Shown here: positions 1 to 59,681 of the stretch, piece after piece | Layout: each line of letters begins with the position of its first letter | Position numbering within the stretch: position 1 is the stretch's first letter | Assembly (NCBI RefSeq): GCF_041260155.1 | Contig: NC_091931.1 | Coordinates: 34,999,326 to 35,063,325, forward strand | Origin: Ptychodera flava | Lineage: Eukaryota > Hemichordata > Enteropneusta > Ptychoderidae | Direction: 5' to 3' | DNA: 64,000 bases | The notes under the pieces: model-generated | What the model was told of the DNA's origin: nothing | Databases searched by the model: none | Seen by the model: only the letters and a program-made list of their open reading frames with translations | Translations under genes and position numbers: made by a program

Positions 1-275
1 TTTTTCGGCGCGCCCTTCGGTGCGTAACTTTAATATCAGTCATATTTTTCAGCACGCCTAACTTTAACATATCAAGCATACATACATCAGAGATATCTGT
101 ATGTTCAATATTTTTCAGCGTGCTCTTCAAGCTCATTACTTTATATATCATACATCTTTCAGCATGCCCTTCAGGTGCATGACTTTAATATACAAGGCAT
201 ATATATCAGAGATATCAGGATGTTTCATATTTTTTGGCGCGCCCTTCAGGCGCCATACTTTCAGAGATATCTTGA
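1..275. repeat. Degenerate tandem repeat at left edge
   Basis: About five imperfect copies of a unit of roughly 45-75 bases follow each other. Each has a GCGCGCCCTTCAGG-like core followed by ACTTTAATAT and, in several copies, ATCAGAGATATC. The array runs off the left end of the window, so its full extent is unknown. No coding potential is evident. Confidence 0.6.
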
Positions 276-1685
276 TGTTTGCTAAGTGAAAGTGTACCAT
301 TATGAAATCTGCATTTCATATGAAAAGGATGACAAATTCCTGATACTTTTCTGTTCTCTCTGTGAGAATTCAGTATGAGAAGCAACATGCACAAATATTT
401 CACAATATATATTTGATACAGTGACTTATTTTAGAGATAGAACCAGATATGAACTGAATGGCCTCGCGTGCACATTTTGTAAAGTACTTCTTGGGTGAAC
501 TGTGCCTATGACAAAGATAAAATAATGATGGCGTAAATAAAACATACATACAGACATACATACATACAGATGACGGACGCCGTGTCATACTATAAGCACA
601 CATTGGTATACCAAATGTATGCCAAAAAAAATAAATAAAAGCAAAATCAGCTTATAAACATTGGAAAATTTACAGAATTAAAACTTTTACAAATCATTTA
701 CATTACATTGTTTTTATTCCCGAAATTAATCCAATCTATCTAAATTTGACATTATCCCCACTGTATTGCCCAATGAAAAAAAAGAAAAGAAACCATTTGA
801 AAAATTATGATCCAACAATATCTGTCGATGCAAGTGCAAATGGCTGAGCAGGCTCTTGACTGGCAGAGGTCGCGTTTGCGTATAATTTCTGCATATTTCA
901 CATAAAATTGCCATGTAGAACGAGTTGACCTACTTCACAGTATCTCAATGCGCCCAAAAACGATACAATCATCTGTGCCGCGCCGTGTAGCAGCAAAATG
1001 AGTTCGTGACCTTTGAAGTACGCGTTTCAAAAAATAAATACCCATGGGAACCTGCTCACCACGCCACGCAACTCATGTACAGCTGACTATGGTGCACTTG
1101 TCAGGCGATGGTCGATGATTCTGGTTATTGCCTATATTGTCAAGTTCAATGCCTAATTTACGGAAACACGAACTCTGTCTAGTGTATTCGAAGCTCTGCG
1201 TACAGGTTGTGCAGACGGCCTCTACCACGTGGTGTCCTGTGGACAGTGTGGTACAAGCCGTCGGCCTACCACCGTACCGCCGGGAAACGCAGACCTATTG
1301 TACGCAGGAGCTAGCCTACTGCTGCTGATTTAACATCAATGCCAACATGGAAATCTCATGAAAAATTTGTCATTGTTGGTCATGTCGCTAATACAATCTT
1401 GAAAAGCAGACTGTCAATACGTCGCCATAATATTATGCTGATCTCAGCGGAACCATGCCGGAATATAAATTCGCTGACACACACACAAGATTGAAAAGTG
1501 TCACTCTACATCTCATTCTCAGAGAAAAATGCATTGATCAAATATTATGACGCTTACCTTCGATAATCTAGCTTTTGGTTCGCTATGTCCAGAGTAACCC
1601 ACACGATTCTTAAAGTCAAACGTCGACACGACGACATCAACAGTCAAAACTCAAGATTAGCGATCAGCGCGGCCGAGTGACTGAA
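276..1685. other. No supported gene
   Basis: AT-rich sequence with a short (CATA)n run near 541-567. I see no exon with splice sites and recognisable protein, and no clear repeat boundaries apart from the start of the LINE target-site duplication at the right end. Confidence 0.5.
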
Positions 1686-2139
1686 TTCAGAAATCACTTT
1701 TTTTTTTTTTTTTTTTTTTAAAAGGATAAATTTATTTCAACATAGTCACAAATAAAACAAATCTACATAACTGTGAATGCGTTAAAATTACAATGCGTCT
1801 TGTGTGAAAAAACAAGTAATTATCTGTTTGATTACAAAGATCATCATATGAATGCATTCAGGATGCATTCTTCTCCTTCCAGTCTTACAAGGCTTGAAAA
1901 CTTTGTGATAAAATCCTCAGTTTTGTTCATCATCTTATAAATGAAATACAATGTATTCATCCATGAGGAGAGATGACATTTCAATTGCATGACATAGGAT
2001 TGAAGGGAAACTTTAATCCCATCAAGAGTAACCGAATTTCGAATATTCCAAACTGTATATTTTACAAAGGAAGTAATACAGTAAATAATGTCAGATGTTG
2101 CATTATTATCATTTTCGATTCCTGCAATTGCTAATCTTT

Positions 2140-3352
2140 TTATATTGATATTATTATCAAAGTTGTGGTTTCTGACAAAGAAAGAAATACATTTCTGCCA
2201 GATTTCTTTAACATATTTACACTCAAATAAGATGTGTTCAAGTGTTTCTTCTTGGCCACAAATATGGCATTCCCATCACTTAAATTGAAAGTTTTGGCCA
2301 AGCTTCCTGTGACTAGGCCTCGATGGAAAATCTTCCAATTTAAATCATTTACTGAATTGCTGACAATTTCTGTTGAATTAAGACGGCTGAACAGAGTAGC
2401 TTTGTAACTGTCAGTAAGACTTAGATTCTCAGCCCATTTTTGACCAATCTGACCTCTGACTGCATGCCATTTCTTATCAACTAATTTCCAATAAAGTGAC
2501 TTGGTTTTGACCTCACTTTTTGTCAGACCATAATTCTCTAAGTCTAAGATATCATAGTTTTCTTCATTTTGGATGTTTGAAGAAATGATTTGTTTCCAGG
2601 AATCAAATAGCATTGAGGAGTGTTTCATACTCTGTTTTGATTTCCTCTTGCACATGTCTATTTGTACCTCCTCTAATTTTTGCAATTATTTCCCATTGTT
2701 GAAGCCAGTCATTTCTGTCATCATTCCAGATGTCCTTAAGCCTTAAAATTTCACTCTTTGACCATTTGTCATAAAAGAGGACACTTCCTTCATTCTTAAT
2801 ATTGTCGTTATACCACAGAACTTCTCTAAGAAGATTCTGTTTTGATGTTGGCAGATTCACTCTTGTAAGTCTAAGTGACTTCCAGGTATTTAACATATCC
2901 CCATACACCATTGGGGTTCGTTTGTTGTTGACTTTGAAATTGAGATGGAGGTAGTGATAATCACTATTAAGTTTATTGTCATAACTCGCTATGAAATATT
3001 TTGATAAGCTGGCCCATTTAGGGGTCCCCTTATCTGGATTTTTCTCAAATAGTTTCATAAGCCACTTTAATTGGAGTGCATTAATTTTTTCTTCAATGTC
3101 GACAACTTTTTTGCCACAGTCATCATATCTTTGAATGAAAATACCCCTTTTTATAACTTCTCGTTTACCTCTCCAAATAAATTTCCATAATTTACTATTT
3201 GCTTCATTAATAATTTCCTTAGGTACGTGATCAAATGATGCCAGGTACCATAATTTTGATGCAGCCAGCATATTAGCTACTATTGCTCTGCCTTTAAACG
3301 ACAGATTTCTAGTATTCCAGATCTTAAGGCAATTCGTAAATTTTTCCATCAC
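2140..3352 (-). pseudogene. LINE pol remnant, C-terminal part
   Basis: This is the main surviving coding part of the LINE. Two overlapping open frames (2603-3352 and 2140-2685) must be joined by a frameshift to give the continuous end of a reverse-transcriptase polyprotein. A second frameshift is needed to read the terminal CCHC zinc knuckle near 2215-2290. The catalytic reverse-transcriptase core and any endonuclease domain are missing through 5' truncation. It is not an active gene. Confidence 0.8.
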
Positions 3353-3368
3353 TGTTTTCCAGTTTTTT

Positions 3369-3404
3369 GCTCACGTGTGAACACGTGAGCATATGTCGCG
3401 GCGA

Positions 3405-3447
<43 letters not shown>

Positions 3448-6000
3448 TGGTCCATTTTCTCAAAAACGGCTGAACGTATTTCAGTCAAATTTGGTAGACA
3501 TCTTCAGAATTCAAATGGCTAGAACTGAAAAGGTTTTGGTGGGCGTGGCTTGGATATTAATGAAGTTATGAAAGTTTTAATTTTTCTGTTACGCCGCGTA
3601 TGACAAGTGAAAACAATCGACTGTTGTGAGGGCGCTGTGAAATGTGCTTGTCCAGGTTGGCTACAGCTGGATAGCTCTGGTTTCAACCACGGTCCCTCCG
3701 TGTTTCAACCTCGTATTGAACATTAAAAATATGATATTTTATTACTCATTCAACTCACTATTCAAGATAAAATATCGTTTAGCAAATTAGCTTTATCCTT
3801 GGTAATTGATTGTTTCCCTCGCTGCTCGATCGCCAGAAATGAGTACATACGTTCTCTACCTAGCCTCATGGCATGGAAGTGCTGATGAATAATAACTTTG
3901 GGTCAAAGGTATTGAAGTGTCCAATCAGGTTCGTGCACAGAGTCCAAGGCCATGACCTACTTCATGTACTTCTGCACTGTTTTGATTTTGCTTCGCCAAG
4001 AAACGTGTTCGTCATTGTCCATAGAAGTATGTTTGCTCTCCTTTGAGGTTGTTTGTGAAACAAATTCCGGGATAGGCCTTGGAATGCATACGATCGGCAT
4101 CGCGGCAGTGCATGTAGCTAGCCCTACGAGTATGACGAGAGTGTCCGGCTTTGGCTACGCCGCCTCCCACCTCCGGTAGGCGGCGTAGCCAAAGCCGGAC
4201 ACTGTCGCCATACTCGTAGGGCTATGCATGTAGCGTACCATGTTTGTGTAACTGCCGAGCTCAACATGCATTCACGGTTGATACTCGTGTACAATCATGA
4301 TGTGTTCAATTCTGATGAAGATTCATAAGTCTTACTTTTGCAGTGTTTTTTTTCCGTACGATAATCCCGACAATACTGTTACTGTTAGACGAGGTGGCCA
4401 TTTTATGATAAGTTTCAATACTGCACAGCTACATAGCGTCACTATCGTGTGATCGAGGTACAGCGTTGTTGAACGGGATACAGAAACTCTGCAGAGGGAG
4501 AAACGATCGTTGACATGAACAGTCAATGTACTTCAGCACGTAGTCCGCAGATAGCGGATCGAGAAAATAAACGTGTCCCAGTAAATAACGGAATATTTAT
4601 GTACATTAACTCGATATTAATCAAATTTCCAGCTCATCGCAAAAAAATGTATTGCAAAGATTAATTTGTCACTGACAAATACTGCACTGTATGGAAAAAA
4701 CAGTCTGTAGAATAGTTCAACTTCAAGTGGTATTACCCGAGACAAACACTTGTGTTGTCAATTTTGATTTCATTTCATAAACTTCATACTTCATCGAGTA
4801 TCGTGTATTTCAGCCTTTGTGAAGCCATTTTATTGATATTTTCAATTTTTGTCTTGGCTTTGTTGTGGAACATGTTGAATCGTCTACGTGGACATGTAGG
4901 CAAAAGTGTGACAGGGTCGAAGTGACTTGGGTATCTGGGGCCGACCAAAACCAGTGTGAATTACTGGGGTCAAAGCGGACAGCGGCCGGGATGACGTGTT
5001 CCCCAAGCGAGCTACCTTCAGAAGTCTGTTTCATCGCAAAAAACGTCAACTTTTAAAACCCGTCATTTATTTACTGATGTTATTCTCAGCATCACAAACA
5101 TATACGCCTCTGCTATGTATCACAGCAAATAGTTATATTTGAGCGCCCCGTAAATGAGATTCTCGTTTTTTTGCGAACCCGGAAGTGTGTCTTGCTCAAT
5201 GCATTTCCTACCCATAGCGAGGGAAACTGCCCGCGTTCCCATGCTCCCATGCACCCTTTTTCAATGCCAGTGCAACGCCATCTTTGCAAAATTTGTGGTG
5301 GTATGCTCGTGTGATGGAAAACCTCTCTTATTCTAACAATGACGTAGTTGACTTTGGACTTCGATTTCGTAAATGTGATGTCCATGCAGTGAGTTTGGGT
5401 TGGCGCGCTTATAATGCAATCTTCGCCCGCCTGCGGTCCGATATCCCGCATTTATTAGCGATATTTATCTGTTTTGACTTGACCAAAGTTGGCAAAACTT
5501 GCTATGTACATTAAAGATACTATGATACAAGATTATTGAAAGTCATTTGACATTTTTTTCAGCCAATTCCCAATATGCATATTTAATGAACCTTCCAAAT
5601 TAGGGATATATACTGGCATTTACTTGATAAAATTTGGCGAAACATGCTGTGTACATTGATCATTATACCAGGTTATAACAGTATTGAAAGTCATTTTGCA
5701 TTTTCATGTCAGCTAATTCATAATTTGCATAAATAGCTAACAAGCTTTCACGGTTTGGCATATAGAGCTTGAAGGACTTGACCAAAGGTAATTACACATG
5801 CTATATTGTGATACAATGACAGTACTCAAAGAAATTAATTATTTTTATTTCAGCTAATTACATATTTGAATACTTAATGACCTTTAGAATTGATCTGTGG
5901 TGAAATTCATTGTGTTGATCATAACACTTTAAATGTAGCAAAGCATGTAGCAAAGGTTCAAACTTGCACATAAATGCAATATATAATGAAACACGTGAGC
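3369..6000 (-). mobile_element. Pearl/HINE-like (Helentron-type) element inserted in the LINE
   Basis: The low-coordinate end is a perfect hairpin (3369-3390: GCTCACGTGT, GA, ACACGTGAGC) followed by a (TCTG)n microsatellite at 3407-3447. The other end (5991-6000) is ACACGTGAGC, matching one hairpin arm. Between 5470 and 5940 there are three diverged copies of a unit of about 150 bases, marked by CAGCCAATT or CAGCTAATT at 5560, 5710 and 5851. Sub-terminal inverted repeats, a tandem-repeat core, a tetranucleotide microsatellite and a terminal hairpin are the features described for pearl/DINE-type elements related to Helentrons. LINE coding sequence stops at one edge and resumes at the other, so this element inserted later. 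No protein was recognised inside. The family assignment is inference. Confidence 0.65.
4119..4224. repeat. Long near-perfect hairpin
   Basis: Arms of about 49 bases (4119-4167 and 4176-4224) start TAGCCCTACGAGTATG and share a GTGTCCGGCTTTGGCTACG core, separated by about eight bases. Only a few mismatches are visible. It sits within the larger inserted element and could be a separate small foldback insertion. Confidence 0.75.
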
Positions 6001-6189
6001 ATTTTCAGTTCATATCTGGTCTCTAGATGTGTTACTGTTTCCAAACCCAACTCCCAAGATCTATAAAACCTTGTTTGAAAAATCGATCCCTTCCACTGAA
6101 TCAGTGCGGTTTTTAAAACTCCCAACCCATAAACCTTTGGATTTCTTTTTGTTCAGCTTTGCACCTGTTGCTTTTTCAGAAATCACTTT

Positions 6190-6465
6190 GTGTAAAATGT
6201 TTTAGTATAGCGCCCTCAAACATACTTATTTAGCCTCTCATAGACTTATACAGGCCACAAATTTTCTTTTACTCATAACTTGATAAATTCGCAAAGCACA
6301 ACCACCAAAAACTAATCAGTTCTTGCAAATTTGAAGAACAAATTGTGTGCGAAATGTGATCGGAATCTGCCAAGCCGTTTTTGAGATATCGTGCTAACAG
6401 ACAGACACACACACACACAGAAACGCCTAAACCATAACCTCGCTGCGCGCATGCGCACGCGAGGT
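6190..6465 (+). mobile_element. 3' end of a third hairpin-terminated element
   Basis: A GC-rich hairpin at 6437-6465 (arms beginning ACCTCGC and ending GCGAGGT) is preceded by an ACAG/AC microsatellite at about 6393-6420. Before that lies the phrase GCCGTTTTTGAGATATCG, related to AAAACGGCTGAACG at 3463 next to the other microsatellite. The arrangement matches the terminus of the neighbouring pearl-like elements. The left end was not found. Confidence 0.45.
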
Positions 6466-6645
6466 AAAAATGACAAGATATCTTTCCTTCTCATTGATGC
6501 AATTATTTTCCTTTGTTTCATAGGTTTTCTGTAGAAAGATGCTTTTTTATGAACAAAATAACAGTTAAAAAAGGCAGTTTTTGTCATTATTAGCTGTGCT
6601 TTTATGGTTTCAATGTTACACAAGACAAGTCATCGTTGATGACAC

Positions 6646-7922
6646 AGTCCCCACTTGTTAATATGTACTTTGATTACAGGTCCTCAGAGAGGATAGAGTT
6701 CTCTTCATTAGGTCTGTGATAAAAATACTTTTGAATAAATTCGCTTGATACATGTCTGAGTTGTAGTTCAGGACATGAAAAAATCGTAATAAAATGGCCA
6801 CATGGTGGCCATATTGGATCGTATCACAAAACAAATCAATGTGCATATGTATGACTTAGGTCAATGTCCTTGTACCAACTTTGATTAAAATCGGTTGAGA
6901 TATGCCTGAGTTATGGCTTTGTACATGAAAAAATCATAACAAAATGGCCGCACAGCAGCCATATTGAATCGTATCACAAAACAAATTAATGTGCATATGT
7001 ATGTATGACATTGGTCAATCTCCTTTTACCAATTTTGAATAAAATCGCTTGATACATGTCTGAGTTATGGTTCTGGACATGAAAAAAGTAATAAAATGGC
7101 CACACGGCGGCCATATTGGATCGTATTACAAAACAAATCAATGTGCATGTGTATGACATAGGTCAATGTCCTTGTACCAACTTTGAATAAAATCGGTTGA
7201 GATATGCCTGAGTTATGGCTCTGTACATGAAAAAATCGTAACAAAATGGCCGCACAGCGGCCATATTGGATTGTATCACAAAACAAATTGATGTGCATAG
7301 CTATGACATTGATCAATGTCCTTGTACCAACTTTGAATAAAATCTGTTGAAACATGCCTGAGTAATGGCTCTGTACATGAAAAAATCGTAATAAAATGGC
7401 CGCCTGGCAGCCATATTTGATCGTATCACAAAACAAATTGATGTGCATATGTATGACATAGGTAAATGTCCTTATACCAACTTTGAATAAAATCGGTTGA
7501 GATATGCCTGAGTTATGGCTCTGTACATGAAAAAATCGTAACAAAATGGCCGCACAGCGGCCATATTGGATTGCATCACCAAAAAAATTGAAGTGCATAT
7601 CTATGACATTGGTCAATGTCCTTGTATCAACTTTGAATAAAATCAGTTGAAACATGCCTGAGTTATTGCTCTGTACATGAAAAAATCGTAATAAAATGGC
7701 CGCCTGGCAGCCATATTGGATCGTATCACGAAACAAATCGACGTGCATCTGTATGACATATGAAGTAATCCTTGTACCAAGTTTGAATGAAATCGCTACA
7801 GGCATCTCTGAGATATCTGCGTGAACGGACGGACGCACGGACGGACGGACGGACGCACACACGGACGCACGCACGGACATGACCAAACCTATAAGTCCCC
7901 CCGGACGGTGTCCGTGGGGACT
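6646..7922 (+). mobile_element. Pearl/HINE-like element with 150-bp tandem repeats
   Basis: The left end carries AGTCCCCAC (6646-6654). The right end is a hairpin at 7894-7922 whose last bases are the reverse complement, GTGGGGACT. Between them are seven copies of a unit marked by AAAATGGCC at 6791, 6941, 7093, 7243, 7393, 7543 and 7693, a period of 150 (once 152). Alternate copies resemble each other more closely (CGCCTGGCAG versus CGCACAGCGG), giving a 300-base higher-order period. An (ACGG)n tract at 7824-7880 precedes the hairpin. The design matches pearl/DINE elements of marine invertebrates. No protein is encoded. Confidence 0.75.
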
Positions 7923-8284
7923 AAAAAGGTCCTCTCAGACACTGTACACATCAGATTTGGCTAAAAAAGCTCTCTATGGCTGCTCAGTAGATTTAATTGG
8001 ATGGTTGGCAAGTCTTAACACCCATCAAAGTTTTTGATTCACTGCTTTTTCCTCTTTGATATTAATGATTGACATCCATTTCTGTACAACAGTTCAGGAC
8101 ATCTGGTTAAGCAGAGAAAGTGTGAAATACATTCACAGCTCATTCAAAATACAGCTTATTCAAAATGTACTGTATTTAAACTTTAAGATTGACACTTTGA
8201 AATTCCTATCTTACAACTGACATGTCAACAATTTCACTAAAACATAGAATGACTATTTAAAATATAAATATATGTAAAATGTAA

Positions 8285-8287
<3 letters not shown>

Positions 8288-8374
<87 letters not shown>
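8288..8374. repeat. (AT)n microsatellite
   Basis: About 85 bases of alternating A and T with one interruption near 8348. Confidence 0.9.
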
Positions 8375-8403
8375 AACTTTATGTCCATCTTTTGTTTTAC
8401 CTT

Positions 8404-8535
8404 TGTCGCGCCCGGGGGGGTCACCCTGTTTTAGAAATTTGGAATAGGGGGGTCACCCTGTTTTCAAAATTTGGAATAGGGGGGGTCAGCCACTTTTTGA
8501 TGTCGGCAAAAAATAATCCACCGCCCCCCCCCCAG
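8404..8535. repeat. G-rich short tandem repeat
   Basis: A unit of about 38 bases, reading roughly GGGGGGTCACCCTGTTTT then AAATTTGGAATA, is present two to three times, followed by a C-rich run at 8521-8533. G-run/TCACC and C-run/TGACC motifs also occur at the ends of the transposon at 55.5-57.4 kb, so this may be an element terminus. Confidence 0.5.
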
Positions 8536-9725
8536 GCCGAAGAAACTGACCAGTCCCTTATGCTGATAGACAACCATTGCCAAAAGGCAGCAAAACTCCG
8601 CAACGATTTCGAGCTAAACTGACACAGTATTTCATATCCCTGCATCAAATGAAATTGAAAACACAATCCCATCAGTGACATTTGGTAAAATTTTCCCATG
8701 AATCATATCTTAAAATTAAAAAGAAGTGAAACAAAGACGTCTTGTACTTAGCCGATCAACAGCACAGTGTGAACTGTGAAGTGGCATCTGCATTGCCTGC
8801 ACATAAAAGCAACTCAGCATACCTCAGTATCAAATGGTCTGTTTCTTATGAAAACAACAACTGGCAGTGAAAGTTGTAATAGTCACCGGTAAAAACTCTT
8901 CACAGATGAAAGTATAATTGTTTCAAACGAATGAAACTGCAGGTTTTAGAGAAGGAAAACCAATGGGGGATGCGCGGAGTGGGACTATTCTATTTAGGTG
9001 ACGGATTATAAATAAACTGGATAACGTAGGATTTTCCTCACAATACTGTAAAAGGAATTCCAATGTCCCCTTGTTTTACATTTTGTAACATAAGTAATAG
9101 TTTTGCTGCTCTGAAAAGTAATTAAACAAACTCTAACGACCCATTATACTCTTCTAACCTCTCTGTAGTTGAGTTTTACATGTAACACGGATGAACAGCA
9201 CACATGTACATATGTTGGTTTTACTGAGGAATGCTGTTCAGTGGAATGCCAACCCCTGGTCACAAATTAGTTTATGGCTCTAGTATGATACTTATCAGTG
9301 ACTTTGTATACATATTGTGTAGCCCATGGAGCACTCATGCAGCCAGATCAAGTATCAAGTTTGAGGTGAATTACCAAAGTGCTTTGGTAATTACCGATCA
9401 AAGTCTCAATATCATCAGCGAAGTTGCTGGGTAATTAGCAAGTTTGGTGTCCGGATAAGTCGTAAAACCACTGTAACACTGCTGAAAGTGTTACTCTAAA
9501 TGATGAGTATATGGTATGGAATTTCAGATTCTGAAAATTTTATTGTCTCCCACTGAGAAATTTACATTTGGCTTCATTGACTTAATGAGTTAAATAATGA
9601 ATGGGTTCCAGTGTGGAATGTGAGATAGCGTACATATCATAAAGAACAGTACAAGAAAGACAGTTGTTTTATTTATGACATAAAAAGGAGTCTGTTGCAG
9701 ACATTCAATGCAGTATTAGCATGGA
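8536..9725. other. No supported gene
   Basis: I looked here on the minus strand for the missing last exons of the upstream GST-like gene and found none that keep the reading frame. A few AG-bounded open stretches hit stops within a few codons. No repeat with clear ends was seen. Confidence 0.45.
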
Positions 9726-9883
9726 CAGGGATGTAGAAAATTTTGGTTACAGGTGGCCAAAGTAAAAGTATATGCCGTTACAAGTAGTCCTGATTTTTTA
9801 CTAAAACTAAATTTTCACAGCCGGCAAATTTTAGCTGACAGCCGGTTGTTTTTGCCGGCTGCAGGCTATGTTCTACATCCCTG
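9726..9883. mobile_element. Short MITE with 13-bp terminal inverted repeats
   Basis: CAGGGATGTAGAA (9726-9738) is perfectly inverted as TTCTACATCCCTG (9871-9883), giving a 158-bp element. Inside are several CAGCCGG and GCCGGCTG words. CAGGG-type termini are common in hAT elements, but no convincing 8-bp target duplication is visible. Confidence 0.6.
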
Positions 9884-10084
9884 ATAGATACTGGCTTTCA
9901 GTGTGGAAATCTTTTGAAGATATCTAATTAAGTAATAAACATTGAAGAGTTTGCATTCTAACTAACGCTTTGACTACATTAACACAGTACAGCTGACATG
10001 ATGACGTGCAATTTGATGAGTTAGAGACACTGTGAGTGCGTAGCTTTGAGAGTTGACATAAAGACTGGCAGTGTGGAGACTTAC

Positions 10085-10212
10085 TGAGTGTTAAGCTGAC
10101 TGAGATGAGCTGGAATGTTTGCGTTGAGAGAAGCAATGAATGACATCCTTGAGGAATACACAGCTCGAATCACAAAGGCTTTCATGTTTTGTCTCATGAA
10201 CGTTGTGAAATC
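10085..10212 (-). CDS. GST-like gene, alternative exon version b
   Basis: The acceptor follows CTGTTAG and the donor is GTAAGT. It encodes 42 codons plus two bases, starting DFTTFMRQNMKAFVIRAV and containing NIPAHLSQLN. Like version a it starts at phase 0 and ends at phase 2. Splicing a to b would shift the frame and meet a stop (TGA) within six codons, so only one of the two can be used in a transcript. Confidence 0.55.
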
Positions 10213-13200
10213 CTAACAGACAGTAAAAGCACACAATATTCAGCGTGAGCAAAGGATGACAGAACAATTATGCTGCATTACAAGCATTCTAAATGGTACG
10301 CTTATTTTCTTTCCGCTGTTTTAGCACGACTTACTTCTTATATTTCTCAGTCACTTGTTTGGGGACATTTTTATCTTGCAATAGAGCTTCTCCGCTGGCA
10401 TGTATCGCTCTCAACACAAACCCAAATGTGTTACTGTACATAACCGGAACAAAATCCTGTAAATTGTTTGACAAACGGCAGACTTAAAGAAAATGACAAA
10501 TCCAGAAATTTGTCAACATCTCACACCACAATAAATACTGGGGCCTGTGAACACCTGTTTCTTTGACCAATGGTTTCACAATTGCCAAAAGTGGTATATT
10601 TGAAATGTTAACCTAAAGTGAAATGAATTAGCCAGGGCTCAAAATTACAGTTCTTAGTCCCTTGTCTCAGAATAATCAAACCTTACCTGGGACTACTAAT
10701 TTCTGGAAATGGTTCTCAAATGGGAATACAAGTGTCTTGTGTTTATTTGTTTTAATCTGCCTGATTACCTTTTACTCTGTTTGATTATCCTACATAAATA
10801 GAAACTCAGTATTTTGTGGTATAGTTTCATACAACATTTCAGCTTGAAAGTACTTTCATGCATTATCACAACAGGGAGCCCAGAAATCTAGTTGTTGTGG
10901 TTGTTGTTGTTTATATTAGTCTTGTTGTTGTTGCTGTTGTAGTTGTTGTTGACCAATATGATTCAACGAACATAACTATTGTTTTGTTGTTGTTTCAAAG
11001 GTAATGTAGATGTCATGAGAAACACTACAAGGACACTATCATTATTTGACCCATTAGTCCTGTTTCAAAATGACCTACATTACACGTCCTGCACACATGT
11101 ACTGCATGTTGTGATTGGTTAATCCGCTTCTCTAAGGTCCACTTTCGGAGCAGTCATTGGAGGGACCTCATGTGTTAGGTCTCATTATTATGTATTATTC
11201 AATTTACAGCTTCCTGATTGGTTAATGTGTAGGTCCGGTCCTCCAGTGTTCACTGCCTCATTATGCAATGTCCCATGTACTTTTGGATGATGCCTGCATG
11301 TGGTCGCAGCTCGATCCCAGTATATGAAGAAAGGTACTCATGCCTAGTATTTGTATTTGATAAATTTCTTGATCAAATCAATTTTGCATTTCTCCAAGAG
11401 TTTGCGAAAGATATTCATACATGTCTGTCCAAAGATCGGTATATGTAGGTTACGATCGGTACGACTGACCCACAAGAATCTATGACGGCTGGCACCAGCT
11501 TTAGTCGGTTGACTGCGAACAACTGTTCTCGCAATTTTCGATCTTTGGAACATGGTAATTGGCCTACTGAATTATATAATGAACCCCATGTGTTTCCCTT
11601 GGAGCTCTATTGTTTCATCTTGTCATTCACAGGCCTCACTGTTGTCGATGCGGCCAATGCCTCTGTCAAATCAAAATGAAAATGTAAAGCGTGAACTTTG
11701 TACGTAACCAACAATTGGAAAACAACGAGCCAACATACCTGTAATGCATAAAGGGACAGGGATAAGTAAAAACATGGAAATTTTACGCATGAAGGTTTGT
11801 CGGGCATTTTTCGTTGTAACTTTCGGCGGATCCGTCAACATCACGAATAACATATTACTTCAGCGGTAGCCAGGAAGCACGTGGGACATTGCATAATGAG
11901 GCAGTGAACACTGGAGGACCGGACCTACACATTAACCAATCAGGGAGCTGTAAAGCGAATAATACATAGTAATGAGACCTTACGCATGAGGTCCCACCAA
12001 TCAGCGTAACGCAAATGGACCTTAAATTACCAGATGAACCAATCACTGATGTTGGTACATATGTCATGGACCTGACTTATGAAACAGGACTATTGCAACT
12101 CTCTCCCAATGTGCAAACTGAACCTACCGAGTATGAGAGTGTACGGTGGGATAGAGTTGCATTGGTTAAATAAATGATAGTGTCCGTATAGAGTTTCTTA
12201 TGACATCTACATTACGTTGAAACAACAACAACAACACAATAGTTATGTTTGTTGAATTTTATTGTCAACAACATAAACTACACAACTAATATAACCATAA
12301 ACAACAATACAAACAACAACAACAAGATTTCTGGGTTCCCTATGCTGTGACTATGTTGCTTGGCTGAGAGCATGAAAATTGAACTAGATAATTAGATGAT
12401 GTTAAAATATGATATTAAACTGTTGGTCAGATTGTCAGATACAGTAATAACATACTAGTAATTTAAAATAAGCCATACAGCTTGGGTATGAGGGGACTAC
12501 CTGATGTCTTCTTGGGAATACTAATTTAAATAGTTGTCCACTTGGACTACCTTGCAAAAATTAATTTTGAGCCTTGCTAGCTAAGGCAATATTTAACAAT
12601 TTAACTGTAGCAGCATTTATACAGCCATCCTCGTTTCCATTCCTTTTCCTGGAGTACAATGTCTTTTGACGCAAACATGTTCATTTCATTTCTAACTATA
12701 TTATCACCCTTGGACCACAGTCAATCCACAAATTATGGAAGTGACCATGGTTGAACCATTACGGAGTTGTAATATACTCACATCTGTCAAGCCTATTTCC
12801 CATTCTTGCCACTGTCTGGCTTGTGCTTTTTCCCAAGGATCATCAGGATAGAGCTGTATGCCGGGTAATACACTATCCAGAAATTCTGTGATTACATTAG
12901 ATTCATACAGGGAGCAGTCTGGGACACCCTACAGGCAACAGAAATGTGTAAGATTGCATATTGAGGCTGGTAGTGTAGTTTTTACTATGACATTGGCAAA
13001 GTTTAATGGGAACATTTTCCTTTTTGCTAAATCTAGGTTGATTTACAAAATCACAGAACAGTTACAGTGCACTATCTTCAGTGAATTTCTGCTACGTATT
13101 GAATATTAGAAGTATCTATTTCACTTTTTGTATGTCACTTTAATCAATGCTTACGTGCAAAGATAAATCTGCCTCTCCAAGTGCTTATGCAGAATGTGCC

Positions 13201-15857
13201 TTGGGGACAGATATTTGGACTCTCAAACTTTTATGATATTCTCTTGGTCTACCTCTTATCTGGGCTTATTTTGAAGCTTACTGACCAAATAAATTTTCCA
13301 CCAGCATAGTTTTGTGAAAATTGGAAATTTCATTTTCCCTCATAGAGTTATCACAGAGACAGCAGTCATTTCCAATGTCAAAGATTGGTAAATATTGGAT
13401 AATTCATCATTCTCATCAGCCTCCTCTCATACAAAAATTTCACGGTAACTCCTGAGTTTCATTCTTGCTTTTGAAAGAGAATGGTTGAACATTTGCTTGA
13501 AAAAAGTTTGGGCATAAGTTAAGTCATGCACTTTCAAGGCACAAACTACCTTCAGTAAAAAGTACAATCTAATGAACTCAACTGACCTTTTCAAATACAA
13601 CTTACAAGTAACCTTAGAGAATGTTATCAGTCAGACCATCTTTTGCTGGTAAAGGCTTTGATCTTGACACTTTTAAAGAACTCACCTTCACATTTTGCAC
13701 TGTCAACGCTGGGACTTTACCGTTTGGATTTATCTTTAGATATTCTGGTGTTTTCTGTTCCACTGTCATGAGATCCACTTCAACCTGTTGAAAAATAACA
13801 ATCTAAATCAAACCAGGCCCACAATGATATAGGGTACATGTATTTATAAAAATACCGCAAAAGATGCATGTGGACACTGGCGCAGCATATTGCCTGATAT
13901 GAAATGGAGGGCAATGCATGGCGACAATGTCTAAGTGCATCCTTTGTGTATTTTCATAGCAACCTCATTATCATACATCTTACATTCATAACAGTGGCGT
14001 CAAATGGGCAGAATGTTGACCATTTTCATGGTATCTATTTCAGGCATCTATTTGGAGATATTGTGGCGGCACATAAAAAAACTCATACCCTTTTCTTGAT
14101 CTAAATCTTATTTTAGGACCCCTGTTTTAGACCAGTGTGGCTTTGAACCTGGGTCAAAAGCCATAAAGTTGAAATTTGTAAAGCGTTCTTGAGCAAAAGT
14201 AGGGATGTGCACTGTTATGGCACAGCAAGGCCTTTTGCAAATTTGTTGTCATTTGCAAAGCCATAATTTGCCAAAACACATTTGGTTATATCTGAAAATT
14301 TGGTGAAAGAACATGTTTATCTGGATGGATTAAATCATATCCCATTTTAGACCATGATTATACTGAAATTTAAACCCCTATTTTCAGGCATGTCACTGAA
14401 AAACCAACTCCTAAGGGTGGTAAGTGCATTCATAAGGTCTTTAAACTGTTGATAACTCCCACCCCAAACAAGAAAACCTGTATTACACTTCATGATCTCT
14501 TCAAACTTTTCAAAGATGATTTTCATTAAATGCTCAGATTGTCTGCCTTTTCAGAAAAGGAATCATCAGTTGCAACATTGTCACATCCAAAATTTGAATT
14601 TCATCTTTTACAGACCTTACAGTCTCACAACTGTCGTTCAAAATGTCACTCAGAACTTAAGTCAGCTTGTTGCTAGAAAAATCAAACAGAAGTAAGAAGA
14701 CTCTTTTAATAGAGTTCTAGAAATTTCACTCGTTCACTGATGAACATACAAGAAATTACACTGACTCATGCATACTGGCAGACACACAATGTATCTACAT
14801 CTTTTTTAAACAGTCAATTCCTTGTTCTTGATGACACTGGTGAATGAAGTTACCTTGTTCCATGACACTGCTTTCTCAATAAGTGTCATTCTCACTCTCC
14901 TTGCACATGGACTGGGTTCACTATCGTATAATGTGATACCATCTTGAAGACGAAACTTTCTGAAAGGTGCAAGTTTTGTAAAAGTCAACAACAAGAATAT
15001 ACAAAATTGATGACACAGTCCCCACTTGCTAATGGGTACTTTGATTACAAGTCCTCGGAGAGGACAGAGTCATCTTCATTAATTGGGTGTGTGATTAAAA
15101 ACAAAATGGCCATGCATTTGCAGGACAATAAATTTGCATGAAGTTTGTGCAAAGTATACTTATGTACCAAATATCAAGGCAATCTGGCTAGAGGTTTGAG
15201 TTGTAGCATTTTGACAGAGTTGGCCTTTTTTACCTCCTTTGGATGTTTTTGCAACAAACATGTTTGTTTGGCTACATAGACAAATCGACAAAACTACTTA
15301 AGGAAATGGAATTGTAGCACAGGAAATGCAGAAATACGACATCAAAACTTACATTTCTGTCCCTTGTATTAATCCTGTCACAACCAGACTTTGGCCCAAT
15401 ACCATTGTTTTCAATGGTGTGGTTGCAACCATGTGCAGGGAAATGGTTAACTATAGTAGAATGCATACATCCTGAGACTACAATTGAGGAAAGCAACAGT
15501 ACCAGTAATGCTCATGGTTGTCTTTAAAGCCACAATAGCTGCTAATGTGTTAAATAAAATGATCTCAAAATATCCTGAGTTTTCCAAGAGTTTTCTTTAA
15601 ATAAGACCCATTATAATAAAGACTTAAAAAGTGTATAACACTGTCATAAGTATCGAAAGTGGCATGTAAATTCAAAAGTTTTAACATCACGTGACAGAGA
15701 AAATAAAGATTACAACGAAAAAATGTCAGCCATCGTGTGTTGTGCACAAGTAAATGGCATCATACCTTTTCTTGGATGATTACAATGTGTATCTGCACAA
15801 AGTACTGCATTTTTTGTACTTTCCCGTGGGACACCATTTTATGAGTGCGGCAGCCAT
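10085..15857 (-). CDS. Glutathione S-transferase-like protein (partial, multi-exon)
   Basis: A minus-strand gene with very short exons: 15857-15820 (tentative start), 14959-14854, 13784-13686, 12928-12782, then 10456-10335 or 10212-10085. The frame is continuous across all GT-AG junctions. The tentative first exon encodes MAAALIKWCPTG and completes a Lys codon at the join. The next exon gives ITLYDSEPSPCARRVRMTL, the next EYLKINPNGKVPALTV, the next SLYESNVITEFLD and YPDDPWEKAQARQW. Together these are a GST N-terminal thioredoxin-fold domain, including the cis-Pro VPAL and the glutathione-binding ESNVI region (E-S/D-x2-I), with a candidate catalytic Ser or Cys in the SPC segment. The following exon begins the helical C-terminal domain. 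The rest of that domain was not found in this window. The expected role is glutathione conjugation or a related thiol reaction in the cytosol. The class is unresolved. Confidence 0.75.
10335..10456 (-). CDS. GST-like gene, alternative exon version a
   Basis: The acceptor follows a TTTACAG and the donor is GTAAGT. It encodes 40 codons plus two bases, starting DFVPVMYSNTFGFVLRAI and containing NVPKQVTEKY, the beginning of the helical GST C-terminal domain. It joins in frame to exon 12928-12782. It is similar to the next downstream exon (10212-10085) in start, end phase and residue pattern. Confidence 0.7.
10629..12583. mobile_element. Foldback element with long inverted repeats in a GST intron
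   Basis: Two arms of roughly 650 and 700 bases are inverted copies. The outer ends read GGCTCAAAATTA at about 10636 and TTAATTTTGAGCC at 12561. Both arms contain a (GTT)n or (AAC)n tract (10890-11000 and 12220-12325). The inner ends are almost identical (11217-11280 against 11879-11943, sharing GGTCCGGTCCTCCAGTG). About 600 bases between the arms show no coding sequence. It lies wholly between two GST-like exons. The exact target duplication is unclear. Confidence 0.8.
13185..13553. mobile_element. MITE family A, diverged copy
   Basis: This copy reads GTGCCTTGGGGACAGATATT near its start and ends with CTTTCAAGGCACAAACTACC. It aligns along its length with the better copies at 45676-45944 and 52260-52634, including the internal GAAAGAGAATGGTTG. 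Its flanking TTAA is degraded. It lies in a GST-like intron. Confidence 0.6.
15011..15110 (+). mobile_element. Solo left end of the 150-bp-repeat element
   Basis: The stretch from GACACAGTCCCCACTTG through ACAAAATGGCC matches the left end of the element at 6646-7922, including TACTTTGATTACA and GTCCTC-GAGAGGA. The tandem core, microsatellite and hairpin are absent, so this is a truncated or diverged copy in the first GST intron. Confidence 0.65.
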
Positions 15858-29181: not shown

Positions 29182-32100
29182 TTATTCAGCGTAACTCTGA
29201 CGTACCTTGATGGAGTCCAAGGCACGGCTAATGTCGCCACCCTTGGCTTCCAGCAAGTGGCTCAACCAACCGCCCTCATCGTCAAATCCCATGTCCAGCA
29301 TCTGTTTCAGGGCTTCGCCAACCTTGACATTCTTAGGTGGTGGATTCTGCAGATCTGGCATGATAGAGGAACCACCAGCTGGAGCTGAATCGCTGACCAC
29401 AGTCCAGTCATTGTCATCACTGGAACAACCTTCTTTGGGACCCATATCCAAGTCCTGATCAAAACAATCACAAGATAATGACATGTTGCATTATTGTGTG
29501 CACATGGTGCATATGAATGATTTGTGACAGGTTAATGTGTCTACTGATTGCAGCCCTCTCATCTACCTATCAAGTTTATTGAAACGGAATTCCACACTAT
29601 TCAGGCAAGTGCACAAGATCTGTCCATACAATGTTCAATGTTGAACTTGATTGCTTTCATTAACATATAGCGTACAACAATCAATATTTTAAACCTTTAT
29701 AGTATAAGACTAAGAGCATCATACCACATATTGAACAAGTACATAGATGAATCACTTCAACACTATAGTAAACTTTATATGAATGAATACTGTTTTTTCA
29801 CTCATACAACACATTAGATTCTTTCTCGAGTACCAATAATTACAGCCTTAGGGAATCATTCTAAATTTGATATCTTTGAAAGAAATCTCCACAGTAATTT
29901 ACATACTTTACAAATTACCCTTAATTTTTTCATCTCATTTAAAAACTACTATTTCAAGTTTCCAAGGGCGAAATGGATAGTACAATTTTAGGTATCAAAG
30001 GCCTTAAGGGTCATATACATACCATTGGAGACTCATCTACATTGGCAGTGCTTGCAGCATCCCCACCCTGCTTGCTTTCATCTTGCACCTTCTTTTCTGG
30101 GTTTTGCCCGCTTTCGGCTTGTTTGGCTGCTTCAGTCTGGGCGCGACGGTTTTGGCATCTACCACTGCGGCCAGCGGGGCCGCCACCACATCTACGACCA
30201 CGCCAACCACCTCTAGCCCCCGGTCCTTTGCCACACCGTCTTCGCATTTCACGATGTTCCACGTCAACATCTACATCGATTCCTACAGAGCAATGTACAC
30301 TTGTCAGAAAATGAATGATATCATTGAAAAACCTGGGCTCACAACTCCATCAAACAAGTCACTCACTCTCCGACCATAGGCCTTGTAAGAATTGTCAGGT
30401 ACATCCTACACTTATCATCTGTAGAGGAAGACTTTGAGTGCATGACAAGCAAGGCTGTCTTCATAACAAAAAGATTTACCAACAACAATATATTACACTT
30501 TTCCAAATTGTATTGATTAGTAAAACCTGCATACATCTCCACAGGACTTATTCTTTGTAATATAACTGAATAGCACTAAATTTGTCATGATGTCAGAGTT
30601 CCATTATTGATATGCAAATACAAATATTTGTCTCAAAATTTCGACAAGTCTATCGGCATAGGAATCATGAAAATGGTACTTTGATACTGCCAATATTCTG
30701 AATGTACCTAAATTATGTGCTAAAATATGACCTTACACAGGGGTCATAAAGAAAGATGTAGTAATTGAGATAAAATGTTGTCAAAATTTCTGTTGTCAGC
30801 AGTAAAATATCTCTATATTTTATAATTAACCTACTATCCCGATTAGCACTATTCAGGTGTTGGAAATACTTACCTAGTGGAGACAACATTTCAGCGACTG
30901 CATCACCAACTTCCTTCAAGTACTCGGCATGAGGTAAATCTTCAGATCCTTCCATCGGTTGCTCCTTGGCTTCTCCATCTGCTGATTGGCCACTGGTCTC
31001 TCCGCCTTCCTTCTGCTGTTCCTGGCATTTCTGTTGCTGTCTCTCCCACATGCGGCACCAGCGTTGGGCCATTCGGGGACCAATATCACCAGTCATGAAA
31101 CGCCACAGACCAGGACGAAATGTGAAGCCCTATGATGAAAAATACAACACATTGTAGGGTGTATGTCTGTATGAAAATTTGGCAGCAGAATTTGACTTTC
31201 ACCTTTTTTTTAATCATGTGCAGCACAAACTCAAATGCTATGGCTTTACTAATATTGGCAGGATCTTTTATTTTCTTTCATTGGTAGAACTGTTGTCACA
31301 ATAAACTTTTAGTTGAAACAGAGAAAATTTACTGCACAGACTAGAAGTGTCTACTGTCTATGGTGTCAATGAGTTCAATCATGCATATGATGATCATTGC
31401 AGTAGATCCAAGCCACCTACTGGTCTTATGTGTATTTTTAAATAAATTCTGAAAAAGGAACTTCAGAAGCATTTGGTTTCTTCTTTGTTTTGAGATATAA
31501 TGTTTGTTAATGCATCTGAAACACCATCATGACTATCATACAATCAGAAGATGACATGCCAACAACAAACAAAGTTGAAATAAACCAATTTCAAGTCAGT
31601 CAAATATTATTACAATTTGCAGTTTCATTTAGGTATACAAAATATTGCTTATTTGGTAAATCTAACCATATACAAGAATGAATTTTGCGAGATCATGAAC
31701 ATTTTTTCCATACATTATGAAAAATGTTCTATTTAAGGAAATATTACTCAATGTGGAAACATCCACGTTAGTGTTTACAGCGGTTATGACCCACTATAAA
31801 TTAGACAAAGACTCTAGTACAGTGGCTTAATCTCAGACAAATCCTGTACTTGTGTGGTGTTCTGATTGATACACGATAATCGTTTATTGAGTTATTTACT
31901 CAAGGGATTACTGTTTTGTGGAGATATCTAATGTGCTTCATTGTACAAAAGAAAGATCGAGCCACATGTCTAGTCAGTTGAGTAATTGTTAGAGGTGAAT
32001 CTGTCTGTGACTGTTTCATTCACATCCAGTTTACAAAGAGTTCATAGACAGTTACCCGCACTTTGTTGTCATGAATATACACTGGTAGTGTTGCGAAATA

Positions 32101-33854
32101 TGCAGATTTATCTTTACTTACTCCCATGTGGCTCCTTCCAATTTGAGGTTTTCGGATCTTGATCATCTCATGCTCAGGGTGCAGCCCTTTGCCTTCACAT
32201 CCTTTGCACAGGTCGTAGTCAGGACACACCACACACTTGAAGCGGGGTCCAAATATACGACCATCACATCCATCACACACCACACCGGGATGGAAAGCAT
32301 TCTCATTTCCTTTATCTCCATCCTGCTCTTTCTTGGCTGTCACTGAAAACAATAAAACAGAATTTGTTTTTTAGCTTTGTTCAAATTTATCATGAAATGG
32401 AAGCATATATGGTATAATGCTATACCTGACAAATCGAGTGCAATGTATGATTTACTGGTCTCTTTTGTACCGGCAAAAAAGATGAAATATCATTTAATTA
32501 AAATCAAAGAAATTAATGTCTTTCAAGGATATCATAAACTGAAATATTGATGTTTCATGGTAAATTGCAGGAAGATAATTGAAAAGCACTATATGAATGA
32601 TGTTTGTAGGTATTGTAATACAACTGTAAAGTTGTTTTCTTTTAACTTACATTTGATGTAGACCCTAAATATTTCTTCATTTAGTTGTCCATATGCATCA
32701 ACCAGTTCCTCGTCACTTGAAAATGAGATCAAGTCTCCCTCAGAGTCTGAAAATATAAATGTATTGTTTTGCTATAATGAGACGAATGATCATGCAAGTG
32801 TTACTCATCCGTATGTATCAGCTGTTTTTGAAATCAGCCATGTTGGATGACTCAGCACAGGAGGACCTTGTTTGTTGACAAACAATAGGTAGTTGTACAG
32901 TCACAGCAGTGGACCCTGGGGTCAGAGAGGGACCAAAATGGCTGCTCTCAATTTAAGCTTACTAACTGTGAGTCAGGGATCTGTCACTCTGTGTTTAGGG
33001 ATTGTGCATCTAAAGTAATCCTGTTAGCCACACAGAATGACAAGGTTGACCAGCTGTTGCATTCACGATAAAAACAAATCCCATATGACTCATGATGTCA
33101 TGATTCAGCAAATGTTTCTGCGTTTTGCACTCGAATTTTGTGCTGTCAGTTTTATTTCATTTATAGGACCTTTCCTTCTTTTCCCTCAGCTTCAGCTGGC
33201 TGTCATACATTTGTATATGGTTATACAACACTCTTTGGTCGGTTTAACTCTCTTCTTAAGAATTTTAGACATAAATACCAAAAGCCATTCTTCCCTCTGA
33301 ATTCCCGTTGTCTTAAAAACTTATTTCAAAATATATTATCAACAGTGGTCAAATATAAATGTGAAGACAGAAAGTTCTATAAGTAAGCAATCCTGTACTA
33401 ATTGAATGTGCACAAGGTTATAGCCCCACTTTCAACATCCCCCTGCAACATTTTACAGACAAATATGCACAGATTTTTATGATTCTACGATTTGTGCGCT
33501 GGAAATGTTACCCTTACTACAATGTTATTGTCTACATGATTATGGTCGTGAAGCTGATAAAGGGGTAAAATATTTAAGACCTGAATGATTTACTTTCGGT
33601 AATGCTCAGGTATTTTTGTTCGCATCTCAATGATGTAACAATGATGATGTAGGCAATATGTACACGCATAAGAAGGCTTTACCTCTGTACGACAGAGTGA
33701 AAACATCTGGGCTTCTAAGAGATGGGAACACTTGCGTTATCTTCTTGGACAGGTATTCGTAGTTCGTTGACACATCTTGGTCCACGCAAAATCGACGGAT
33801 TTCTGGTGAACTGCCGTCGTCACGGTGCAAATAAGCTTTCACTGTCAGAGACAT
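29182..33854 (-). CDS. SQSTM1: Sequestosome-1 / p62 autophagy receptor
   Basis: Six coding exons on the minus strand: 33854-33683, 32746-32651, 32342-32122, 31129-30874, 30282-30023 and 29454-29182, giving 425 residues (human 440). The PB1 domain (1-90) starts [14 protein letters not shown] and has the acidic OPCA segment [15 protein letters not shown]. The ZZ zinc finger (about 106-150) has [15 protein letters not shown] and CPDYDLC. The conserved [18 protein letters not shown] leads to an Arg/Gly-rich linker. The LC3-interacting region is DDNDWTVV (W352-V355). The UBA domain (about 384-420) has [17 protein letters not shown]. p62 polymerises through PB1, binds ubiquitinated cargo and tethers it to autophagosomes. 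The start was chosen at the ATG opening the PB1 domain. No KEAP1-binding STGE-type motif is visible. The gene is divergent from SREBF. Confidence 0.95.
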
Positions 33855-34665
33855 ACTTGTGCTGTGGTACAAACATAGATTAAAGAAGAAAAACTAAGTG
33901 TGGAACAACACTGAAAATGAAACATCAAAGTTTCAGTATCTGCTGCAAGAGTAGAATAAATTCGCAACAAAATTATAATACAGTATCTTTAAAGCTTACG
34001 CGTACAGTTATTTTCACGTCAAAGTAATGCTAATGGAGATTTGTCTATTTCTGTCAGTTGTGGTACCAATCGACACTGAACGTGGTAGTATGCTGTGGTT
34101 CTTCGTACTGTAATCAACAATTGAACTCTTCTGTCCAAAACGGCTGTGTTTTATACGATTATTTGGCTTTCCAGATCTTTCTCTGTTGACCAATCAATAA
34201 TGATAGGGTCTGTAAGTATATGCAAATCCTCAGGAAATTACAAAATACCTTTTCTGACCCACCAATGACGTACTAAATTAGTGTTGCTTACGCGCAAAGG
34301 TTTGTGCGCAGACTTAAAAATAGCTTATGATGTCACTGTATACTAAATTTAGATTCAGTGTCGTCACGATGATTTCACTTTTTCTTTTTGGCTGAATCAA
34401 GACAGAAAATTGAATGTTTTGATTTTTTTTATTGTATTAAATTGAAGAAATTCAAAAATTGAACTAAAAGAATGCGAATCAGCAAAAAAGTATATGACCT
34501 TTCGGTTTGACCGCAATATGACTTTTGACCTTCTTAGCATACAAATCTACAAAATTTACATAAGTGAGGCACCATGACGTCAAATCGTACGATGAAATTC
34601 TGTTCGTCTGATTGGCTTAGTTCTCGTGGCGATACTCATGCCTTACTCCAGTATCAACAGCAAAT
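33855..34665. promoter_or_regulatory. Shared divergent p62/SREBF promoter region
   Basis: 811 bases separate the two start codons. A full CRE (TGACGTCA) lies at 34575-34582, CCAAT boxes at about 34190 (plus strand) and 34610 (as ATTGG), and an antioxidant-response-like TGATTCAGC on the minus strand at 34391-34399. NF-Y sites are usual in SREBP promoters and ARE sites in p62 promoters. No consensus sterol response element was seen. Confidence 0.55.

Positions 34666-49139: not shown

Positions 49140-59681
<10,542 letters not shown>

Follow-up and report, generated by a model that had tools for sequence, protein, structure and literature searches.

Does a gene on the minus strand of this window, the whole 64,000-nt stretch of DNA that was analysed, carry two neighboring exons of which each mature mRNA can use only one? 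Exon A (10335..10456, minus strand) is 122 nt long, runs from phase 0 to phase 2, encodes DFVPVMYSNTFGFVLRAIHASGEALLQDKNVPKQVTEKYK plus two nucleotides, and lies between the acceptor TTTACAG and the donor GTAAGT. Exon B (10085..10212, minus strand) is 128 nt long, runs through the same phases, encodes DFTTFMRQNMKAFVIRAVYSSRMSFIASLNANIPAHLSQLNT plus two nucleotides, and lies between the acceptor CTGTTAG and the donor GTAAGT. Both exons are open and have GT-AG splice sites, the donor GTAAGTC is common to both, and a 122-nt intron separates them (10213..10334, minus strand). An earlier note on this DNA had proposed the two as tandem and probably mutually exclusive, and the coordinates, strand, phases, splice dinucleotides and intron length that it gave are all exact. 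The matching residues that it had listed are present too: both translations start with DF, and M, N, FV, RA and N-x-P line up, the last of them after a two-residue gap; an S is shared as well. We consider it probable that A and B are a mutually exclusive pair. The best explanation, which we hold to be likely, is that an old tandem duplication in a soluble GST-like gene gave rise to both exons and that they are used as mutually exclusive alternatives.

The host appears to be an animal gene that encodes a soluble GST-like protein. Upstream of exon A, on the same strand, are three GST exons: E1 (14854..14959, minus strand; KFRLQDGITLYDSEPSPCARRVRMTLIEKAVSWNK), whose first base completes a codon and which belongs to the N-terminal thioredoxin-fold domain; E2 (13686..13784, minus strand; VEVDLMTVEQKTPEYLKINPNGKVPALTVQNVK), which runs from phase 0 to phase 0; and E3 (12782..12928, minus strand; GVPDCSLYESNVITEF...EWEIGLTD), which ends in phase 0. 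Judged by position, E3 would supply the end of the N-domain, the linker and the start of helix alpha4. The introns between E1 and E2, E2 and E3, and E3 and exon A are 1069, 757 and 2325 nt long. Together, E1, E2 and E3 encode a GST N-terminal domain, with Pfam matches to GST_N_2 (5.7e-15), GST_N_3 (1.9e-13) and GST_N (1.6e-12), all above the cut-off, and thus the thioredoxin fold that marks the soluble GST family is present. A phmmer search of the PDB matched 232 distinct sequences up to E 1, with 4mf7 the best (1.5e-12), and most of the best 60 of these 232 carry a GST label. Pfam gave no match to a C-terminal family up to E 1. By position, only the start of the all-helical C-terminal domain falls in A and B, and these two exons, taken alone, are not recognized against bacterial GSTs. 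The intron between E3 and exon A also holds a foldback element of about 1.5 kb (10870-12345), whose inverted arms include 172 nt at 87% complementarity and outer arms at about 79%; blastn detected no second copy of it in the window.

The resemblance between A and B can be quantified. Their alignment covers 40 residues with one two-residue gap, and 11 of the 40 are identical (D, F, M, N, F, V, R, A, S, N, P), an identity of 28% over 40 codons. The local BLOSUM62 score is 51, a value reached by none of 5000 shuffles of B (mean 17.8, sd 3.6, maximum 43). As a stricter control, we scored against A every open AG-GT segment of 98-160 nt that runs from phase 0 to phase 2 on either strand of the window; with overlapping ones treated as separate, these number 1106, and only A itself and B scored at least 38. 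The identities at codon positions 1, 2 and 3 number 14, 26 and 12 of 40; codon shuffles reached the observed identity in 0 of 5000 trials at position 2, 714 at position 1 and 1501 at position 3, and different codons are used at 6 of the 11 identical residues. Because the identity is concentrated at codon position 2, it is as expected if A and B both stayed protein-coding, and it has the pattern that two copies long under protein-level constraint after duplication would show. Over the first 27 positions, the similarity follows a helical periodicity (102 of 5000 shuffles reach the same). No third copy scoring at least 39 exists in the six frames of the window; a plus-strand match at 52882 with a score of 38 looks like chance, and E3's best other match, scoring 43 over 24 residues at 35986 on the plus strand, was likewise taken as chance.

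The pair also has the features by which mutually exclusive exons have been predicted, as set out in sections of PMC3228551: a length difference of 2 aa (limit 20), equal phase, GT-AG splice sites and a relative score of 22% (limit 15%), the last computed with our own gap costs and not with WebScipio itself. According to the same sections, only 0.56% (90/16180) of other exons on the Drosophila X chromosome have these features. That A and B are homologous, duplicated and frame-exclusive exons in a GST-like gene is, as a reading of these comparisons, well supported.

One of the two copies, more likely B, could be a relic, a former alternative exon that is now rarely or never spliced and is being lost. 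We regard such a loss as unlikely, while granting it a real share of the probability. The two exons have just 11 of 40 aligned residues in common, the case for their use is drawn from sequence alone, and codon usage marks neither of them as strongly coding. In a codon-usage score trained on 1292 codons from exons hand-picked in the window, A ranks 264 and B ranks 352 of the 896 segments left after those overlapping the training exons were dropped; because neither exon is separated from the background, this test is uninformative either way. However, both frames are open, the splice sites are intact and the donors match the consensus. The conservation at codon position 2 is unlike neutral drift since the duplication, although it is compatible with a recent loss of constraint.

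We now consider the reading frame. E3 joined to A and E3 joined to B each read through to a two-base overhang. Joining A to B shifts the frame into a stop, as the earlier note had stated: the product reads KYKKISQRS*, and the stop is the sixth codon past the A/B junction codon. Skipping both A and B leaves phase 0, which is out of frame with any next exon that suits A and B. Both lengths are two nucleotides above a multiple of three, and a transcript therefore stays in frame with a shared phase-2 exon only if it contains one copy and no more. If the pair is mutually exclusive, the transcript would join E3 to either A or B, and whichever of these is used would continue into a common downstream exon entering at phase 2. 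Inclusion of both copies would lead to an early stop, and inclusion of neither would lead to a frame shift against the shared exon. Within the window, GST N-domain exons lie only upstream of A, with none between A and B, and consequently B can be fed only from E3. It is unlikely that B is part of a second gene copy, since E1-E3 are the sole N-domain exons found and only 122 nt lie between A and B.

The frame consequences could also have a regulatory use, in which the pair acts as an on/off switch: the joint inclusion or joint skipping of A and B would be regulated and, as a poison event, would reduce the amount of protein made. The prompt stop after A and B would serve such a switch, and the intron length and branch-point distance permit the splicing of A to B. 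A poison event, however, has no need for a second frame that is homologous, protein-like and helix-periodic at equal phase, and we assign this explanation a low probability.

We return to A and B as mutually exclusive alternatives and ask how exclusion could work. The claim that each transcript can use only one exon divides into two parts: the reading frame does forbid A together with B, while exclusion by splicing itself has no visible cause. The intron between A and B is long enough for normal splicing, and therefore it is the frame, not the spliceosome, that visibly forbids their joint inclusion. Of its yUnAy branch-point candidates, one, a CTCAC, is 89 nt from the donor and 33 nt from the acceptor, and the other is 111 nt from the donor and 11 nt from the acceptor; the AG exclusion zone is 58 nt long. 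By these motifs, steric exclusion is unlikely, as a human survey sets its threshold at under 50 nt between the upstream donor and the branch point (PMC5740500). In RNA duplex tests, one of six pairings, the end of the upstream intron with the A-B intron, had a z of -2.69, and the other five ranged from -0.81 to +1.22. The best contiguous helices did not surpass those of shuffled sequence (12, 39 and 39 of 40), and z for five local folds ranged from -1.59 to +0.67. These duplex, helix and fold tests, applied to this locus alone, gave no convincing signal of a docking or selector RNA structure. Because a steric block is unlikely and no docking structure is convincing, the reading frame itself probably keeps A and B apart, most likely together with the decay of wrong messages. 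Frame-incompatible lengths are common among such exons: of 629 human clusters of mutually exclusive exons, 377 (60%) have them (PMC5740500).

The choice between A and B may be set by competition between their acceptors. Viewed by eye, the acceptor of A follows a poor tract, with an AG-free zone of 24 nt, and the acceptor of B has a T-rich tract with the CTCAC ahead of its splice site. Exon A would then have the advantage of lying nearer to E3, with a poorer-looking tract and branch-point candidates, and exon B would have the better-looking ones.

Either choice would be completed by the common phase-2 exon. An unproven candidate lies at 9041..9110 on the minus strand; it has a phase 2 entry, reads AAKLLLMLQN... 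and is in frame from A or B. As read by eye, it runs into a stop after 70 nt unless it is spliced out earlier, and searches with GST profiles and against the PDB gave it no homology support. In the three frames of minus-strand positions 1-9990, Pfam detected no C-terminal GST exon, and its two matches there, PXA (0.0012) and zf-RVT (0.00014), are both below the cut-off. All six frames of the window, divided into 2868 stop-free segments of at least 15 aa, were also scanned with two profiles built from 31 and from all 92 of the 92 fetched bacterial GSTs; this recovered E1, E2 and E3, and the next best segments had E values of 1.2 and 4. The search for a next exon beyond 10085, to which the earlier note had pointed, thus recognized no C-terminal GST exon in the 10 kb that are left of the window, part of which is tandem repeat and retroelement-like sequence. 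A tandem array downstream of exon B, at 6730-7795, comprises 7.1 copies of a 150-bp unit, and a second array, with units of about 180 bp, lies at 56191-56822. Long open stretches at 1844-3370 on the minus strand resemble retroelement remains, and the below-cut-off zf-RVT match is in this area.

As no next exon is identified within the window, A and B could in principle each have a downstream exon or polyadenylation site of its own, with isoforms that differ across the whole C-terminal domain. Their equal exit phase and the GTAAGTC donor on both fit one common partner instead, and divergent partners are, in our estimate, slightly less probable still than a poison switch. Finally, although an identity of only 28% over 40 codons might raise the idea of a chance resemblance between unrelated open segments, 0 of 5000 shuffles and the uniqueness of the pair among 1106 segments reduce its probability to a negligible level.

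What would a swap of mutually exclusive A and B change in the protein? Following the GST topology that we assume here, E3 ends inside helix alpha4, and A and B encode the rest of this helix and the following loop. The earlier note had assigned the two exons to the start of the helical domain. By position, this assignment needs a correction, as E3 already holds the first part of alpha4, which A and B continue. Against bacterial alpha4-alpha5 regions (the region pattern matched 33 of 92 bacterial GSTs, and 32 were used), A and B rank 752 and 576 of the 1106 segments, not above background, and consequently it is mainly their position that places them in the helical domain. In a profile search with these same regions, neither A nor B is among the best 21 matches. 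Adding A or B to E1-E3 changes the score against the profile of 92 GSTs by +0.0 to 0.1 bits (137.6 and 137.7, versus 137.6). An alignment with nine bacterial GSTs is good as far as roughly the RQW in E3 and becomes loose after that. Weak alignments do extend further: E3-B aligns with four Paraburkholderia plasmid-borne GST records over residues 4-92 (30-33% identity, E 1e-3 to 3e-3), the A isoform aligns to residue 156 with the plasmid GSTs H4, H6, H9 and H10 (29-31% identity), and E3-B aligns with LigF (4xt0) at 25 bits for the whole query, the candidate exon at 9110 included.

According to a study of LigF and LigE, the C-terminal domain has alpha4 as its first helix, this helix and alpha3 form the canonical dimer contact of most GSTs, and the active site lies in a cleft between the domains (PMC4777856). 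With alpha4 at the dimer contact and the active site between the domains, the swap could affect the pocket or the dimer, or the two together. It would exchange the later part of alpha4 and the next loop, which border the substrate pocket and contribute to dimers in GSTs generally, and an altered substrate range, as the earlier note had suggested, may reasonably be expected from it. More tentatively, and with somewhat less than even confidence, we propose that the gene keeps one glutathione site and exchanges the later alpha4 and the loop to yield two enzymes that differ in their pockets or in their dimer partners, their exons kept apart by frame only. If so, the locus would be a natural two-state test of the contribution of helix alpha4, in which a small pocket and dimer element is exchanged within one gene, and a simple model for exclusion by frame alone.

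Animals are thought to widen the substrate range of their GSTs mostly via gene duplication. In a delta-class GST gene of Anopheles, all variants share the N-terminal exon and differ in which of several 3′ exons they use, and the gene combines a fixed glutathione-binding domain with exchangeable substrate-domain sequence, as proposed for A and B. In the Anopheles gene, large exons exchange the C-terminal domain, whereas A and B would exchange about 41-43 residues. Frame-incompatible clusters in human (PMC5740500) and those predicted in Drosophila (PMC3228551) are described, in sections of these papers, as homologous neighbors of similar length and equal phase whose joint inclusion shifts the frame, all of which applies to A and B. 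In contrast to these clusters, A and B are known from their sequence only, and their host is a GST-like enzyme; the word ‘glutathione’ is absent from the main text of both papers. Drosophila GSTO2, GSTT3, GSTZ2 and GSTD11 resemble the present gene in that splicing of one GST gene gives protein variants, most of the Drosophila GST splice variants being kept across 12 species (sections of PMC4195677). Unlike A and B, the variants of GSTD11, GSTZ2 and GSTT3 differ by 5′ exons and 5′ UTRs, and PMC4195677 nowhere uses the term ‘mutually exclusive’ in its main text. Exons 4a and 4b of OGDH share with A and B a metabolic enzyme as host and a very short intron, of 118-131 nt in birds and mammals versus 122 nt here; their exclusion depends on distant branch points close to the donor (PMC7969005), which the AG pattern between A and B disfavors. 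Among the open-licence PubMed Central papers listed by searches for a GST with mutually exclusive or duplicated exons, none describes one, judged by title and the start of the abstract. A and B are likely a new case of a well-known mechanism for making protein variants.

A pattern search of viral contigs gave eight matches, and none was confirmed. The window also has features other than the GST-like gene. On the minus strand, the region 29185-33893 has Pfam matches to a ZZ zinc finger at 32023-32370 and to a UBA domain at 29185-29490, with no Pfam match in the stretch 33630-33893, and it is suggestive of a sequestosome-1/p62-like gene. The microRNA mir-33 sits inside an SREBP gene. A mir-33 precursor lies at 42315-42384 on the plus strand of the window (Rfam RF00667, 69.9 bits), and about 5 kb from it a plus-strand open stretch at 36795-37139 has a helix-loop-helix match; the two together are consistent with an animal SREBP gene.
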